Source: Metabacillus halosaccharovorans (GTDB taxonomy: Bacteria; Bacillota; Bacilli; Bacillales; Bacillaceae). From it: 64,000 bases of DNA. The stretch lies in assembly GCF_002019635.1 (NCBI RefSeq), contig NZ_KV917371.1, positions 1,116,001 to 1,180,000 of the forward strand. The letters run 5' to 3'. Both the position numbers and the translations under genes were made by a program. Shown one piece after another: positions 1 through 4,754 of this stretch; position 1 is the first letter of the stretch, and every line of letters starts with the position of its first letter. The notes beneath the pieces were generated by a model. The model had not been told where the DNA came from. It worked only from the letters and a program-made list of their open reading frames with translations, and did no database searches.

Positions 1-1321
1 CCTCATAGTTAACCTTTGCCCACAGAGCAGGCCAAGCATTATGCATGATTTTGGCATCCACCCCATTATGAAGAACAACATCTGTTGGTAAATACTCGCC
101 AAAGTCGGCCATCCAACCGTCAATCCCGAAATCAAGCATATTTTCTTTTATGACGTTTTTATACCATTCAAAGGCTTCAGGGTTTGTAAAGTCCACAACT
201 CCGCAATAAAACTCACCAAAGTCTACAAGGTATGTTTCACCTTGCTGATTTAATGCCAAGTATCCCTTTTCATTTGCGTATTGATAAAGATCACCCTCAA
301 CTGCTACATAAGGATTAATATAGCCTAGGAATCGGATACCTTTTTCTTTCCACTCATGAATTTTCTTATCAAGATTAGGGTATTCCTCCGGATTCCATTT
401 CCAGTTCCACATTAATCGTTTACCGAAGGAGGTGATCCGCTTTCCTTGCCAATCCTGACACCAAACTCCTCCAACCTTCACTCCCTTAGCAAGAGCCTTC
501 TCCAGCTTAGCTTCTACAACATCTGTTCCACCTTGAATTCCAAGCCAAATTCCATCATAGGTCCATTCTGGTAATTCCGGCTGACGTCCAAAGCGCGCTG
601 TGATCTTTTCTACTAAACTAAGAAAGGAGGATGCTCCTTCAAAGATAATTTCCTTTGGTACTTCCCAAACTTGTAATTCATGAAAATCATTTTGACGAAA
701 ATCGAAATCAGCATATGCTGTTGTTTCCACATGACAATAATATTTATTGCTTGAAACATATGTTGGCTGTGGGAAATTTGTGTTGTAATAATCTCCGCCA
801 GCTTTATCCTTCACATCAGCCTGCCATGTAACATAGGTATTCTTGTTTCTGCCAACACCTGGTTCTGATGTCCAAAGTGGAAAGTTTTTTCCTCTCATAT
901 TAAAATGAGACAGCTGTTCACCACATCCATACACTTTTTCATGTTGATCGGCTTCAACACGAATCCAAAAACGGTTAACACGTTCTTGGGTTTCGACAAC
1001 TCTTAATACCGCTTGACTATCTTCCACTTTCAACGAGAATGTTACTGTCGGATCTTCTCCTTTAAATCTACTAAGAGATAGGAAAGCTGTTCCATCCTCA
1101 TTTACAAGTGTTTTTGCATATCGAAGAGCTGTCCTCTCAATGACATAATCACGGATATCAAAATTCCCGCGATACATATCAATTTTTTCCTCTCCATATC
1201 CTACATAAACAAAAGGTTTAGTGGATGAATGCTTAACTAATGTTTCACCATTCCACACTAATTCAAAACCGTCTTCACGTACTTTTAATTCCATTCCTGT
1301 TTTTGAATGAATGTCAATCAT
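1..1321 (-). CDS. sftG: Sulfoquinovosidase (GH31), 3' part cut by window edge
   Basis: GH31 alpha-glycosidase that releases sulfoquinovose (SQ) from sulfoquinovosyl glycerol, the sulfolipid head group. The 440 visible codons match E. coli YihQ closely, including GCGEQ, WTSEPGVGRNK and GRQPELPEWTYDG. The YihQ sulfonate-binding residues are all present in the stretch encoded around 390-480: Gln of CQDW, then Arg and Trp of KRLMW, spaced as Q288/R301/W304 in E. coli. The nucleophile region MADFGEYLPTD is also kept. The acid/base Asp and the C-terminus lie beyond the left edge. The start is an ATG at 1321 after GAGAGG; the second ATG (MELKV) is possible. It is the last visible gene of a minus-strand sulfoglycolysis operon, 74 bp after the symporter. 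The family call is strong; the symbol follows Bacillus sft naming. Confidence 0.9.
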   Translation of the reverse strand, partial: MIDIHSKTGMELKVREDGFELVWNGETLVKHSSTKPFVYVGYGEEKIDMYRGNFDIRDYVIERTALRYAKTLVNEDGTAFLSLSRFKGEDPTVTFSLKVEDSQAVLRVVETQERVNRFWIRVEADQHEKVYGCGEQLSHFNMRGKNFPLWTSEPGVGRNKNTYVTWQADVKDKAGGDYYNTNFPQPTYVSSNKYYCHVETTAYADFDFRQNDFHELQVWEVPKEIIFEGASSFLSLVEKITARFGRQPELPEWTYDGIWLGIQGGTDVVEAKLEKALAKGVKVGGVWCQDWQGKRITSFGKRLMWNWKWNPEEYPNLDKKIHEWKEKGIRFLGYINPYVAVEGDLYQYANEKGYLALNQQGETYLVDFGEFYCGVVDFTNPEAFEWYKNVIKENMLDFGIDGWMADFGEYLPTDVVLHNGVDAKIMHNAWPALWAKVNYE

Positions 1322-1395
1322 GTTCAATCCTCTCGCCTTCTTTCAACCTAGTTTCATAGAAGAGAGTCTGACAATCTGGACAGACTCAATCTCTA

Positions 1396-3174
1396 TTACG
1401 CAAGTTTTTTATCTTTATTTTCACTTTCTGGTTGTTGATTCGTTAGATAGCCGGAGTATTTTTTCATCCAACTTTTCACTGAAAAAATACCTAAAACAAC
1501 GGCAACAGCTGTTACCAATATCATGACCGGCCAAAACATTGGAGAAACAATTTCATCACCATAAGCCAGCCCTATAGGTGAGAACACAACATATGTCATG
1601 ACGATTAACGTTAATAACACAACGGTAACAAGTAATGAATATTTCCAAGGAACAAGACTAACTTGAGCATTTGACTTAAAGATATATGGAACCTTCATCG
1701 GCTTCATTTTTCCAATGACCATCATAATCGCAACTTCAACACAGAATAAAATCGCATAAACATAAATAAAGTTAATTGATAACTGGAACCCAAATAATTG
1801 GTCTAATCCCCAAACAAGCATATAATAAGTGATCACGTGGAATACAATAACCACTTTTGCAGCAAGTGCCGGAATACGCTTAGAAAGCAAGCCTACTAGG
1901 ACAATTGTAATAATCGGGATGTTGAAAAATCCTGTAAAACGGCGAATTAAATCCCATAATCCGTCAGGTGCATTCATAAGTAATGGAGAGATGAAAAAAG
2001 ATACTAACGCAATAATCGTTCCAAAAATTTTACTAACACGAATTAATTCTTGATCTGTTGCATTCTCTTTTAAAGGTTTGTAAATGTCTAATGCAAACAT
2101 GGTAGCAGCTGAATTTAATAATGAGTTGAATGAGCTTAAAACAGCTCCAAGTAAGACAGCTAAAAAGAATCCTGACATATACAATGGTAATACATCTGCT
2201 ACTAGTGCCGGGTAAGCTAAATCAACCGGATTCATTCCTTCACCATAAAGTTGATAAGCAATTAAACCTGGAACCATCATAAAAAATGGAATAGCCAACT
2301 TAAAAAACCCTGAGTAAAGAACACCTTTTTGCCCCTCTGCTAAACTAGCAGCACCTAGTGTCCGCTGGATAACATATTGGTTTGTACCCCAATAGAATAG
2401 ATTCGCTAAAATCATTCCGGTAAAAATCGTTCCAAATGGTACTGAATCCGTACTGGAACCAATAGCATTTAATTTTTCCGGGTTTGCCTTTACGACTGTT
2501 TTCACACCTTCTGCAAAGCTTCCGTCTCCGAGAGTAATAAAACCTAAAACCGGAACAAGAACACCGATAATTAATAATCCAATTCCATTAATCGTATCGG
2601 ACACAGCAACCGCTTTCAACCCGCCGAAAATAGCATAAACAGCTCCAATTATTCCAACGACCCAAACGATTAACCAAATGGATTCCTCATATGAAATATT
2701 AAACATAGCTGGTACATCAAAAAGCTGTAAAATCGCTAAAGCACCGGAATATAAAACAGATGGCACTGTTACTAAAATATAACCAAGCATAAACAATAAA
2801 ACAGAAAGACGACGAACACCTTCGTCATAACGTGAACTTAAAAACCCAGGCAACGTTGTAAAAGCACCACCTAAGTACTTCGGAAGTAAATAGAGTGCCA
2901 TAATGACAACGGCAAAACCAGCTGTTACTTCCCATGCCATATTCGATAAGTTCGCTCGATACGCCTGCCCATTAAGACCAATTAACTGTTCTGCCGATAG
3001 ATTCGTCAACAATAAAGATCCGGCAATAAAGGTACCTGTTAAGCCGCGGCCAGCCAAAAAGTAACCAGTGGAATCGCTTACATCACCCTTCGTTTTTAAA
3101 TATGAGATCCAACCTACTAAGCCCATAAAGAAAATGCACGATAAAAGCGTGAACCATATATTTGACATCTCCAT
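1396..3174 (-). CDS. Sodium:solute symporter, probable sulfoquinovose/SQ-glycoside importer
   Basis: SSS-family (SLC5-like) permease of 592 residues with about 14 hydrophobic segments and a short charged C-terminus (NQQPESENKDKK). SSS hallmarks include YFLAGRGLTG near residue 40, LSAEQLIGLNGQAYR near 60, a GGLKAVAVSDTING segment near 185-200 and NLFYWGTNQYVIQRTLGA near 260. It lies between the SQ isomerase and sulfoquinovosidase genes, so its substrate is inferred to be SQ or sulfoquinovosyl glycerol taken up with Na+. The family alone does not show the substrate. The start is an ATG at 3174 preceded by GGGAG 10 nt upstream; a second ATG two codons later is possible. Confidence 0.85.
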   Translation of the reverse strand: MEMSNIWFTLLSCIFFMGLVGWISYLKTKGDVSDSTGYFLAGRGLTGTFIAGSLLLTNLSAEQLIGLNGQAYRANLSNMAWEVTAGFAVVIMALYLLPKYLGGAFTTLPGFLSSRYDEGVRRLSVLLFMLGYILVTVPSVLYSGALAILQLFDVPAMFNISYEESIWLIVWVVGIIGAVYAIFGGLKAVAVSDTINGIGLLIIGVLVPVLGFITLGDGSFAEGVKTVVKANPEKLNAIGSSTDSVPFGTIFTGMILANLFYWGTNQYVIQRTLGAASLAEGQKGVLYSGFFKLAIPFFMMVPGLIAYQLYGEGMNPVDLAYPALVADVLPLYMSGFFLAVLLGAVLSSFNSLLNSAATMFALDIYKPLKENATDQELIRVSKIFGTIIALVSFFISPLLMNAPDGLWDLIRRFTGFFNIPIITIVLVGLLSKRIPALAAKVVIVFHVITYYMLVWGLDQLFGFQLSINFIYVYAILFCVEVAIMMVIGKMKPMKVPYIFKSNAQVSLVPWKYSLLVTVVLLTLIVMTYVVFSPIGLAYGDEIVSPMFWPVMILVTAVAVVLGIFSVKSWMKKYSGYLTNQQPESENKDKKLA

Positions 3175-3218
3175 AATTTATATACTCCCTTATTTTTTTA
3201 TCAAAATTTACATTTGTC

Positions 3219-3890
3219 TTAGTAATAAATTTGAATGTTTTCTCCCTTTATTCCTGGATATGCACCACGATTAATCAGTACTTCTCGATCCGGATGTGCC
3301 AACAACCATTTATTCTTCATAAATAATAACGAATCTTCCTTTGTCCTTTTATCCATCTCTTTATTCAATGGCTGATTCGTTCCAGCAGGTAAAATCACAA
3401 CTACTTTAAACCCTTTATCACTTATTTTACATGGTGCAAAGTGAAGAGTTGTCCCGTACAGCTCTACCGCTGTTCCTTTTGGAATAAAAAAGGCTTCAAT
3501 TTCGCTTGAATCATATTGATTATTTTTAATAGATTGTAATTTCCCTAGTAAAAGGACAGTATCTGTCAAAGCGTAATTAATCTCACTGCCCTTATGATAT
3601 TCTAGACCATTTAGAGTTGAATTAACACCATTACAATAACCGATTTGTATTGGTAGTTCACCATAAAAATGACTCTGAATTTGTTCTTTAACTGCTGTCC
3701 CTTCCATTTCTGTAACAGATGGGACATACACATTTCCTTCTTCAGGAATTTCTGTATTTTCCATGTAAGGATTTAATTCTTCAAAATTGTAATTGTCTAT
3801 TATGTTTCCATATGAAGCAAAAGCAGGGTCATTCACATGATAAAAAGGGATATGATGATTTAGTGTTCTTAGGTTTTCAAATTTATTCAA
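3219..3890 (-). CDS. sftI: Sulfoquinovose isomerase, DUF4867 family
   Basis: Cupin-like protein of 223 residues matching the DUF4867 family, whose members in Bacillus sulfo-TAL clusters interconvert sulfoquinovose and 6-deoxy-6-sulfofructose. Likely metal-binding histidines are in GLEYHKGSEINYALTD (about residues 97-112) and TLHFAPC (about 148-154), a Glu/His pattern consistent with a KduI-like cupin fold. It starts with TTG at 3890 behind a perfect GGAGG nine bases upstream; no ATG gives a comparable start. It is the second gene of the operon, between transaldolase and symporter. Activity is inferred from family and neighbourhood, and the family assignment is from memory of these clusters. 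Confidence 0.75.
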   Translation of the reverse strand: MNKFENLRTLNHHIPFYHVNDPAFASYGNIIDNYNFEELNPYMENTEIPEEGNVYVPSVTEMEGTAVKEQIQSHFYGELPIQIGYCNGVNSTLNGLEYHKGSEINYALTDTVLLLGKLQSIKNNQYDSSEIEAFFIPKGTAVELYGTTLHFAPCKISDKGFKVVVILPAGTNQPLNKEMDKRTKEDSLLFMKNKWLLAHPDREVLINRGAYPGIKGENIQIYY

Positions 3891-3920
3891 TGGAATTTAC
3901 CTCCATACAACTTGTGGGTT

Positions 3921-3963
3921 AAAGGTCCCTCAAAGAATAAAGATAGGTACCTTTGAGGGATCT
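3921..3963 (-). other. Intercistronic hairpin between transaldolase and isomerase genes
   Basis: CCCTCAAAG (3927-3935) is an exact inverted repeat of CTTTGAGGG (3951-3959), with a 15-nt loop. On the minus strand it follows the transaldolase stop codon. It is not followed by a U run, so mRNA stabilisation or processing is more likely than termination, and this could raise transaldolase expression over the distal genes. Confidence 0.5.
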
Positions 3964-3974
3964 TAATAGCCTTT

Positions 3975-4655
3975 TTATTTTAAAACAATTTCTTCTTGTA
4001 CAGTATTGTCCCAAGCCTTACGGAAAACATCCAAGCCGTAATCCGTAAATGCATGATAAAAGCTGTTTTTGTATACATCAAATCCGCATGTTACAATATG
4101 TGCTCCAGCTTTCGCCGCATCAACAATTTGTTTTCCGTTACGAAGTGCCGCAACGATGATTTCTGTATCATAGTTATATCCCTTATAGATATCAACAATA
4201 TCTTTAATATATTGATTTGTATCTTCCCCGCTATTTTCCTTCCAGCCTACAAATGGCGAAACAAATTTCGCTCCAATTCTTGCCGGCTGTAAAGCCTGTG
4301 AAGGAGAAAAAACAAGCGTAATATTCGTACGAACTCCCTCTTTTTCTAGTTCTCTAGCAGCGATTAGCCCTGGCTCTGTACAAGGTATTTTAATAATAAA
4401 GTTTGATGAAAGAGCAGCAATCTTTTTCCCTTCCTGAACCATTTCTTTTGCATCATCCAAATGCGGATTGATCTCCGCTGAAATTGGAAAATTTTCTACC
4501 CCTTTAAATTCACTTCCTACTTCATCTAAAACAGTTAAGAATGACTTTCCGCTCGTCATAATATGACGCGGGTTTGTTGTAACGCCATCAATACCCCAAT
4601 TTTCATATGCGTATTTAATTTCCTCAATTTTGGCACTGTCTAAAAAATATTTCAT
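3975..4655 (-). CDS. sftT: 6-deoxy-6-sulfofructose transaldolase
   Basis: TalC/FSA-type class I aldolase of 226 residues, typical family length. It begins MKYFLDSAKIEEI, keeps GVTTNPRHI near residue 24, and has the Schiff-base lysine in FIIKIPCTEPGL near residue 89. Late motifs are NITLVFSPSQA and SPFVGW. In a sulfo-TAL operon this enzyme transfers the dihydroxyacetone unit of sulfofructose to glyceraldehyde-3-phosphate or erythrose-4-phosphate, giving sulfolactaldehyde plus fructose-6-phosphate or sedoheptulose-7-phosphate. First gene of the operon, directly behind a CcpA-type promoter, with GGAGGG eight bases before the ATG. A general fructose-6-phosphate aldolase would be the alternative; the sulfoquinovosidase and DUF4867 neighbours argue for the sulfo-sugar. 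Confidence 0.85.
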   Translation of the reverse strand: MKYFLDSAKIEEIKYAYENWGIDGVTTNPRHIMTSGKSFLTVLDEVGSEFKGVENFPISAEINPHLDDAKEMVQEGKKIAALSSNFIIKIPCTEPGLIAARELEKEGVRTNITLVFSPSQALQPARIGAKFVSPFVGWKENSGEDTNQYIKDIVDIYKGYNYDTEIIVAALRNGKQIVDAAKAGAHIVTCGFDVYKNSFYHAFTDYGLDVFRKAWDNTVQEEIVLK

Positions 4656-4725
4656 TTTATTTCCCTCCGTAATAAATAATTATATTCATAATGACCTTTT
4701 ATAAAAAGTAGTTACCTTTGTTATT

Positions 4726-4754
4726 ATCATATGAAAACGCATTCTGAATTTCAA
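4726..4754 (-). promoter_or_regulatory. Sigma-A promoter with cre site in the spacer (sulfoglycolysis operon)
   Basis: On the minus strand a -35 TTGAAA (4749-4754) and a -10 TATGAT (4726-4731) are separated by exactly 17 bp. The spacer carries AGAATGCGTTTTCAT (4731-4745), a catabolite-responsive element matching the CcpA consensus at all but one position. A CcpA dimer bound there would exclude RNA polymerase. The transaldolase ATG is about 70 bp downstream. Confidence 0.75.

Follow-up and report, generated by a model that had tools for sequence, protein, structure and literature searches.

A probable aerobic-type sulfo-TAL gene cluster with an SSS-family symporter and two GntR/UTRA regulators in Metabacillus halosaccharovorans

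Gene content at the left edge of the window

The window analysed here, a 64,000-base stretch of the Metabacillus halosaccharovorans genome (bases 1,116,001-1,180,000 of contig 1; genome size 5.4 Mb), opens inside a nine-gene cluster, all on the minus strand, that very probably encodes a complete, aerobic-type sulfo-TAL (sulfo-SFT) pathway, in which sulfoquinovose (SQ) would be broken down through a sulfofructose (SF) transaldolase (SF-TAL). The cluster is cut by the left window edge and was followed in L002, an 18-kb stretch around that edge in which window position p is position p+12000, as established by a letter-by-letter match over the first 6 kb (Table 1). An earlier note on this DNA had assigned a transaldolase, a DUF4867 protein, an SSS symporter and a sulfoquinovosidase to the sulfo-TAL pathway. 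Each of these four genes was confirmed on the minus strand, with chance excluded, and the pathway call is supported by gene content, by conserved residues and by the genes of the left flank. There the note had expected a sulfolactaldehyde-handling enzyme and an exporter, and the flank does hold a predicted sulfolactaldehyde dehydrogenase and a likely exporter, as well as a sulfoquinovose isomerase gene. The sulfoquinovosidase and DUF4867 genes, described as neighbors, do belong to the same cluster, but the SSS gene sits between them. The right end of the region as first noted, 4754, is the first base of the -35 box of the promoter-like site P1. In order of transcription, the gaps between the nine genes are 84, 44, 68, 178, 265, 23, 8 and 40 bases, and the next gene to the left of the AEC-type permease gene encodes a patatin-like phospholipase. 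The same enzyme set recurs in the related loci L003-L010.

Table 1 Features of the cluster and of its control regions
Feature	Location	Strand	Remarks
SF transaldolase	window 4655-3975	-	226 residues compared with BmSF-TAL
DUF4867 cupin (SqvB/SftX)	window 3890-3219	-	223 aa
SSS-family Na+/solute symporter	window 3174-1396	-	592 aa
GH31 sulfoquinovosidase (SqvC/SftG)	window 1327-1 (442 of 681 aa); full L002:13327-11282	-	
GntR/UTRA regulator 1 (GntR1)	L002 11103-10360	-	
Sulfoquinovose isomerase (SftI/SqvD)	L002 10094-8751	-	outside the window
GntR/UTRA regulator 2 (GntR2)	L002 8727-7978	-	
Aldehyde dehydrogenase (ALDH)	L002 7969-6530	-	
Mem_trans (AEC-type) permease	L002 6489-5587	-	
Promoter-like site P1, TTGAAA-17-TATGAT	window 4754-4726	-	before the transaldolase gene
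Promoter-like site P2, TTGAAA-17-TATCAT type	L002 10290-10262	-	before the isomerase gene
cre-like (CcpA) site, one mismatch	window 4731-4745	+	within the P1 spacer
Operator-like repeat AAAGGT-N14-AAAGGT	window 4694-4719	-	follows P1 closely; presumed target of a GntR/UTRA regulator

Enzymes of the predicted pathway

The transaldolase, the DUF4867 protein and the sulfoquinovosidase, which the note had proposed comparing with characterized proteins, all closely match solved structures. The transaldolase matches PDB 8bc3 ("BmSF-TAL") at 433 bits (E=1.8e-129), with 191 of 226 residues identical (84.5%), against at most 162.7 bits to any PDB chain outside 8bc2, 8bc3, 8bc4 and 8c4i. It keeps the catalytic residues D6, E61 and K89, the sugar-orienting N111 and S133, and W138, A170 and R172 for the sulfonate. 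These roles, including that of W138 in the WAR motif, are described in PMC11659671; W138 carries the published numbering, and positions A170 and R172 were assigned in the present analysis. A transaldolase tree of 46 rows was built from 35 SF-TAL-like sequences (L002, 24 of 80 relative loci including two from Lokiarchaeota, and 10 of the 12 loci in a second set), all of them found as relatives of the query, and from the 11 of 20 PF00923 places in Metabacillus that are not SF-TAL. The two groups are split by a 100/100 branch, with W138-A170-R172 in 35/35 SF-TAL-like rows and R-S-R or R-S-K in 11/11 others, so that the transaldolase does not group with the ordinary fructose-6-phosphate aldolases (FSA), the outcome that would have spoken against the earlier call.

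That the enzyme is instead an ordinary FSA/transaldolase in a cluster degrading another sugar is very improbable. The FSA/TalC model TIGR00875 does match it at 199 bits, and a further role in the pentose phosphate pathway is possible, since the search for PF00923 proteins in this genome turned up no other. However, the score stays below the model's cut-off of 245.95 bits, position 138 holds W where an ordinary FSA/TalC protein would have R, and genes for a sulfoquinovosidase and a sulfoquinovose isomerase surround the transaldolase gene; with the PDB scores, the tree and the WAR motif, this led us to reject an assignment as FSA. Having no second transaldolase does not set this genome apart, because in 7 of 21 genus genomes no PF00923 protein was found, and Metabacillus may often do without a household transaldolase. 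The SF transaldolase itself (E<=1e-80) occurs in 15 of 397 genomes drawn from the order and in 9 of the 21 from the genus, this one included in both counts. No close relative was found on plasmids, where all 201 matching records were less than 60% identical; the best among the matches listed reached 43.8%, and 15 of the 20 listed are annotated as fructose-6-phosphate aldolase.

The part of the sulfoquinovosidase inside the window matches PDB 8r56 (E=1.7e-226), an entry described only as a family 31 glycosyl hydrolase. The full-length protein aligns end to end with 8r56 (E=0), with 6pnr (E=4.9e-296), the structure of E. rectale SftG (PMC11968277), and with E. coli YihQ, 5aed (E=3.6e-277). The Q/R/W residues of YihQ that the note had seen are indeed kept, as Q291, R304 and W307 align with 5aed chain positions 288, 301 and 304. 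Within the first 60 residues the highest 15-residue mean hydropathy is 0.13, and since there is no hydrophobic leader the enzyme is probably cytosolic. The DUF4867 protein (PF16161, 277.5 bits; PDB 9gyy, E=1.6e-101) keeps all of its metal ligands, E97, H99, E103 and H150, consistent with the published structure in which the metal is bound by two His and two Glu (PMC11968277). It had been called an isomerase, and this label was wrong: the separate gene in the left flank matches PF02952 and scores 822.6 bits against the NCBIfam model NF048012 "sulfoquinovose isomerase" (cut-off 700). PMC11968277 reports the DUF4867 protein without detectable mutarotase or kinase activity, and PMC9594981 treats it as SqvB, a putative mutarotase, beside the isomerase SqvD. 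Given this study and the NF048012-positive SftI, we rejected isomerase as its role, leaving it as a putative SQ/SF mutarotase or ring-opening protein.

The ALDH keeps F157-N158-V159, H166, N282 and C288, the first five of which correspond, two positions further on, to F155-N156-V157, H164 and N280 of B. megaterium SlaB, whose Phe-Asn-Val tripeptide and His/Asn pair are described in PMC10599462. It is 81% identical to the ALDH of the Priestia-type cluster L134. Its gene is thus a candidate for handling sulfolactaldehyde, and since the product carries SlaB-type residues the cluster would follow the oxidative route to sulfolactate that aerobic bacilli are described as using (PMC9594981, PMC12890257).

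In the pathway as we picture it, the SSS symporter would import sulfoquinovosyl glycerol (SQGro) and/or SQ, and the GH31 enzyme, probably in the cytosol, would release SQ, which SftI would convert to sulfofructose while the DUF4867 cupin perhaps accelerates ring opening or anomerization. The transaldolase would then transfer the three sulfur-free carbons to glyceraldehyde-3-phosphate, giving fructose-6-phosphate and leaving sulfolactaldehyde, to be oxidized to sulfolactate by the aldehyde dehydrogenase and exported by the AEC-type permease. The GntR/UTRA regulators, and possibly CcpA, would act at two look-alike promoters, those of the transaldolase and isomerase genes. This scheme is built on gene content, gene order, residues and a conserved promoter layout, from which we infer the substrates of both transporters, the pairing of regulators with operators and the flow through the pathway.

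Several points weigh against it. Conversion of SQ to sulfolactate and growth of this organism are predictions from the genes. Among the 25 of 45 NCBIfam matches of the ALDH that were shown, none reaches its cut-off, the best being lactaldehyde dehydrogenase (551.6 of 650 bits), and among its 45 PDB matches 8c54, the solved sulfolactaldehyde dehydrogenase RlGabD, ranks only 30th, several other aldehyde dehydrogenases being closer by overall score. The isomerase has no relative in the PDB, and the AEC-type permease, at 87.4 bits, falls short of the TIGR00946 cut-off of 246.05. It is by position alone that the SSS and AEC proteins are tied to a sulfonate, and the evidence for cre-like sites is weak. 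That the cluster encodes a sulfo-EMP2 or sulfo-TK pathway in which the transaldolase is an accessory is scarcely credible, since a Pfam search of the nine cluster products finds neither a PFK-type kinase nor a class II aldolase nor a transketolase; PF00365 and PF01116, the families used by sulfo-EMP2, are both absent there, and a kinase and an aldolase of those families do occur in one relative, L012.

Among the sulfur compounds of plants SQ is highly abundant (PMC12890257), and the organisms that degrade it influence the sulfur cycle. The cluster is a complete, ordinary representative of a known pathway with modest variations; its importer, of an uncharacterized type, and its doubled control region are modest points of interest. 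The locus adds a complete aerobic-type cluster in Metabacillus and a corrected label for DUF4867, and it makes a named SSS protein and a defined operator-like motif accessible to direct tests.

The SSS symporter and the doubled control region

The symporter belongs to the SSS family (PF00474, 152.2 bits; NF007790, 719.4 bits with a cut-off of 401), and in a single alignment its residues 15-477 match vSGLT across A361/S364/S365, residues of the Na2 site of that protein. From position and family, it is a plausible importer of SQ or SQGro. We surveyed importers in 22 other Bacilli clusters with an SF transaldolase (L003-L012 and L127-L138), some of which may be one species from two collections; the L131 cluster is truncated by the end of its contig, and only part of the enzyme set is seen in L135 and L137. 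An SSS gene is present in 13, a GPH (MFS_2) gene in 4 and ABC genes only in 4, while no importer gene was found in the stretch fetched for L137. Across the 80 transaldolase-relative loci, many of them short contigs, an SSS gene lies in the cluster at 10, an additional 24% match at L049 not being counted.

The symporter could carry another solute, with SQ entering through a carrier encoded elsewhere, a reading we consider unlikely. It is favored by the absence of an SSS protein from L134 and from the stretch fetched in 9/22 of the surveyed clusters, and by an ABC system near the GPH or SSS gene in L129 and L138. However, the SSS gene lies inside the operon, between pathway genes, in the 13 clusters that have it; in L128 and L129 its exact slot is taken by a GPH sugar carrier; and the anaerobic-type cluster L014 also encodes an SSS protein, 68% identical. 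Among the literature matches listed, no paper was evidently on an SSS carrier for SQ, which Frommeyer 2020 or Liu 2020 may describe, and a search combining "Metabacillus" with "sulfoquinovose" returned none.

The regions of P1 and P2 are 76.7% identical over 103 bases (E=3.5e-16) and share one layout: TTGAAA and TATGAT or TATCAT at a spacing of 17 bases, with a cre-like site between them, and then a pair of AAAGRT motifs about 20 bases apart. P1 is among the four best (10/12) of 43 promoter-like sites in the region, a number near the shuffle mean of 37.2, so that the score alone means little. The search for cre-like (CcpA) sites gave 4 matches in the 18 kb where 1.35 were expected, and 8 of 200 shuffles gave as many; one P2 site, read on both strands, accounts for two of the matches. 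The operator core AAAGRTANCTACTTTT occurs exactly only twice in the genome, at P1 and before the isomerase gene, which is suggestive. With one mismatch allowed it was found at 5 places against 13 for a reversed control, and a looser pattern (40 places against 79) was uninformative. Before the transaldolase gene the promoter-operator layout is present in 19 of 23 clusters, this one included, compared with 1 in 11,500 letter shuffles, for a pattern that had been fitted by eye beforehand and rows many of which are close relatives. It was not found at this position in L012, L132, L136 or L137, of which L132 and L136 keep the operator pair.

Before the isomerase gene, the promoter-operator occurs in 7/7 clusters with two GntR genes (this one, L003, L004 and L127-L130) and in 0/14 others, six of which have an operator-like pair without that promoter. 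GntR2 of the L129 genome was found on a neighboring stretch, L139. The two-GntR clusters account for seven of the nine genus genomes with the transaldolase; L132 has a single GntR and L131 is cut by its contig. GntR1 and GntR2 share 59.8% identity. In a tree of 26 rows, from which GntR2 of the L129 genome was left out, one branch separates GntR1 (97/98), another GntR2 (100/99), and a weak one the 13 single-copy rows (65/83), with details blurred by the long branches of L133, L127, L136 and L012. This fits a duplication within the Metabacillus line with faster change in GntR2, and the second promoter-operator would divide the cluster into two units with separate starts.

If the whole operon had been duplicated in tandem and each copy had then lost different genes, the order P1-TAL-X-SSS-G-R1-P2-I-R2-D-E would be explained, and gene remnants would be expected in the gaps. 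The sulfoquinovosidase-GntR1 and GntR1-SftI gaps of the seven clusters held no lost-gene remnants (the best protein hit had E=0.19). In DNA, every one of the seven GntR1-SftI gaps matches the P1 region of its own cluster (E 3.9e-10 to 1.8e-20); the other DNA matches were short internal repeats, a 29-base stretch matching another place in L003 (E=0.004) and repeats within the 5.5-kb gap of L129. The searches therefore point only to a copied promoter and a copied GntR gene. We propose, tentatively and with some doubt, both that the SSS protein imports SQ/SQGro as a third kind of carrier, swapping with GPH and ABC carriers in one slot, and that the Metabacillus operon has been split by a copied promoter-operator and GntR gene. 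If so, a half for release and cleavage and a half for isomerization, oxidation and export could answer to two diverged sulfosugar sensors.

Two further features were seen at these junctions. In L129 (1349-5792) an opposite-strand ABC cassette and a GFO/IDH/MocA oxidoreductase gene lie between GntR1 and SftI, the junction that holds the copied promoter here. The gap between the transaldolase and DUF4867 genes (window 3960-3927) contains a hairpin-like sequence, CCCTCAAAG...CTTTGAGGG, with GGTACCTATC inside it, which by eye resembles the operator core. It is not among the terminators called in the region and is possibly an attenuator or a further regulator site.

Known and related clusters

The comparison with P. 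megaterium DSM 1804 (sqv) and P. aryabhattai SOS1 (sft) was made through L134, whose transaldolase is 99.1% identical to BmSF-TAL. This cluster has the same enzymes in the same relative order (TAL-DUF4867-SQase-SftI-GntR-ALDH-AEC), with 66-85% identity gene by gene. It differs in having no SSS gene between the DUF4867 and sulfoquinovosidase genes and a GPH (MFS_2) gene before the transaldolase gene, and in lacking the second GntR gene and the second promoter-operator before the isomerase gene. The closest named genomes, Metabacillus niabensis EaN21-8 (L004) and Bacillus sp. J37 (L003), with transaldolases 99.6-100% identical, have the same genes in the same order with doubled GntR and promoter, although their AEC gene runs off the available stretch and some intergenic lengths vary, the sulfoquinovosidase-GntR1 gap being 178 bases here and in L004 and 400 in L003. 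The anaerobic-type clusters L014 (Clostridia) and L015 (Fusobacteriaceae) are alike in transaldolase (72-75%), SSS protein (49-68%) and sulfoquinovosidase (65-67%), but their SftI is distant (26% and 38%) and no ALDH or AEC match was found in the stretches covered; L015 encodes a PF03446/PF14833 reductase-type protein and a TauE-type exporter.

In Paenibacillus alkaliterrae (L012:6122-15293) an SF transaldolase stands together with a PFK-family kinase (PF00365; NF010675 above its cut-off) and a class II aldolase (PF01116), possibly a hybrid of two sulfoglycolysis routes. Two Lokiarchaeota loci, L051:10001-10669 and L056:9995-10666, encode SF-TAL-like transaldolases that are 61-62% identical and keep the WAR motif, with no SftI, DUF4867 or sulfoquinovosidase match within 20 kb. 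The genes that follow in L051 are for an FAD amine-oxidase/UDP-galactopyranose-mutase-like protein and a GtrA-like protein, then for several large proteins in a row that resemble one another and appear to be membrane proteins; the one searched had no Pfam match, and L056 looks similar by eye. L051 also carries a sulfotransferase and a sulfatase, and these transaldolases might conceivably help to make a sulfonated glycan. In the transaldolase tree the Lokiarchaeota rows group with two Clostridia assemblies (99/92), which suggests transfer.

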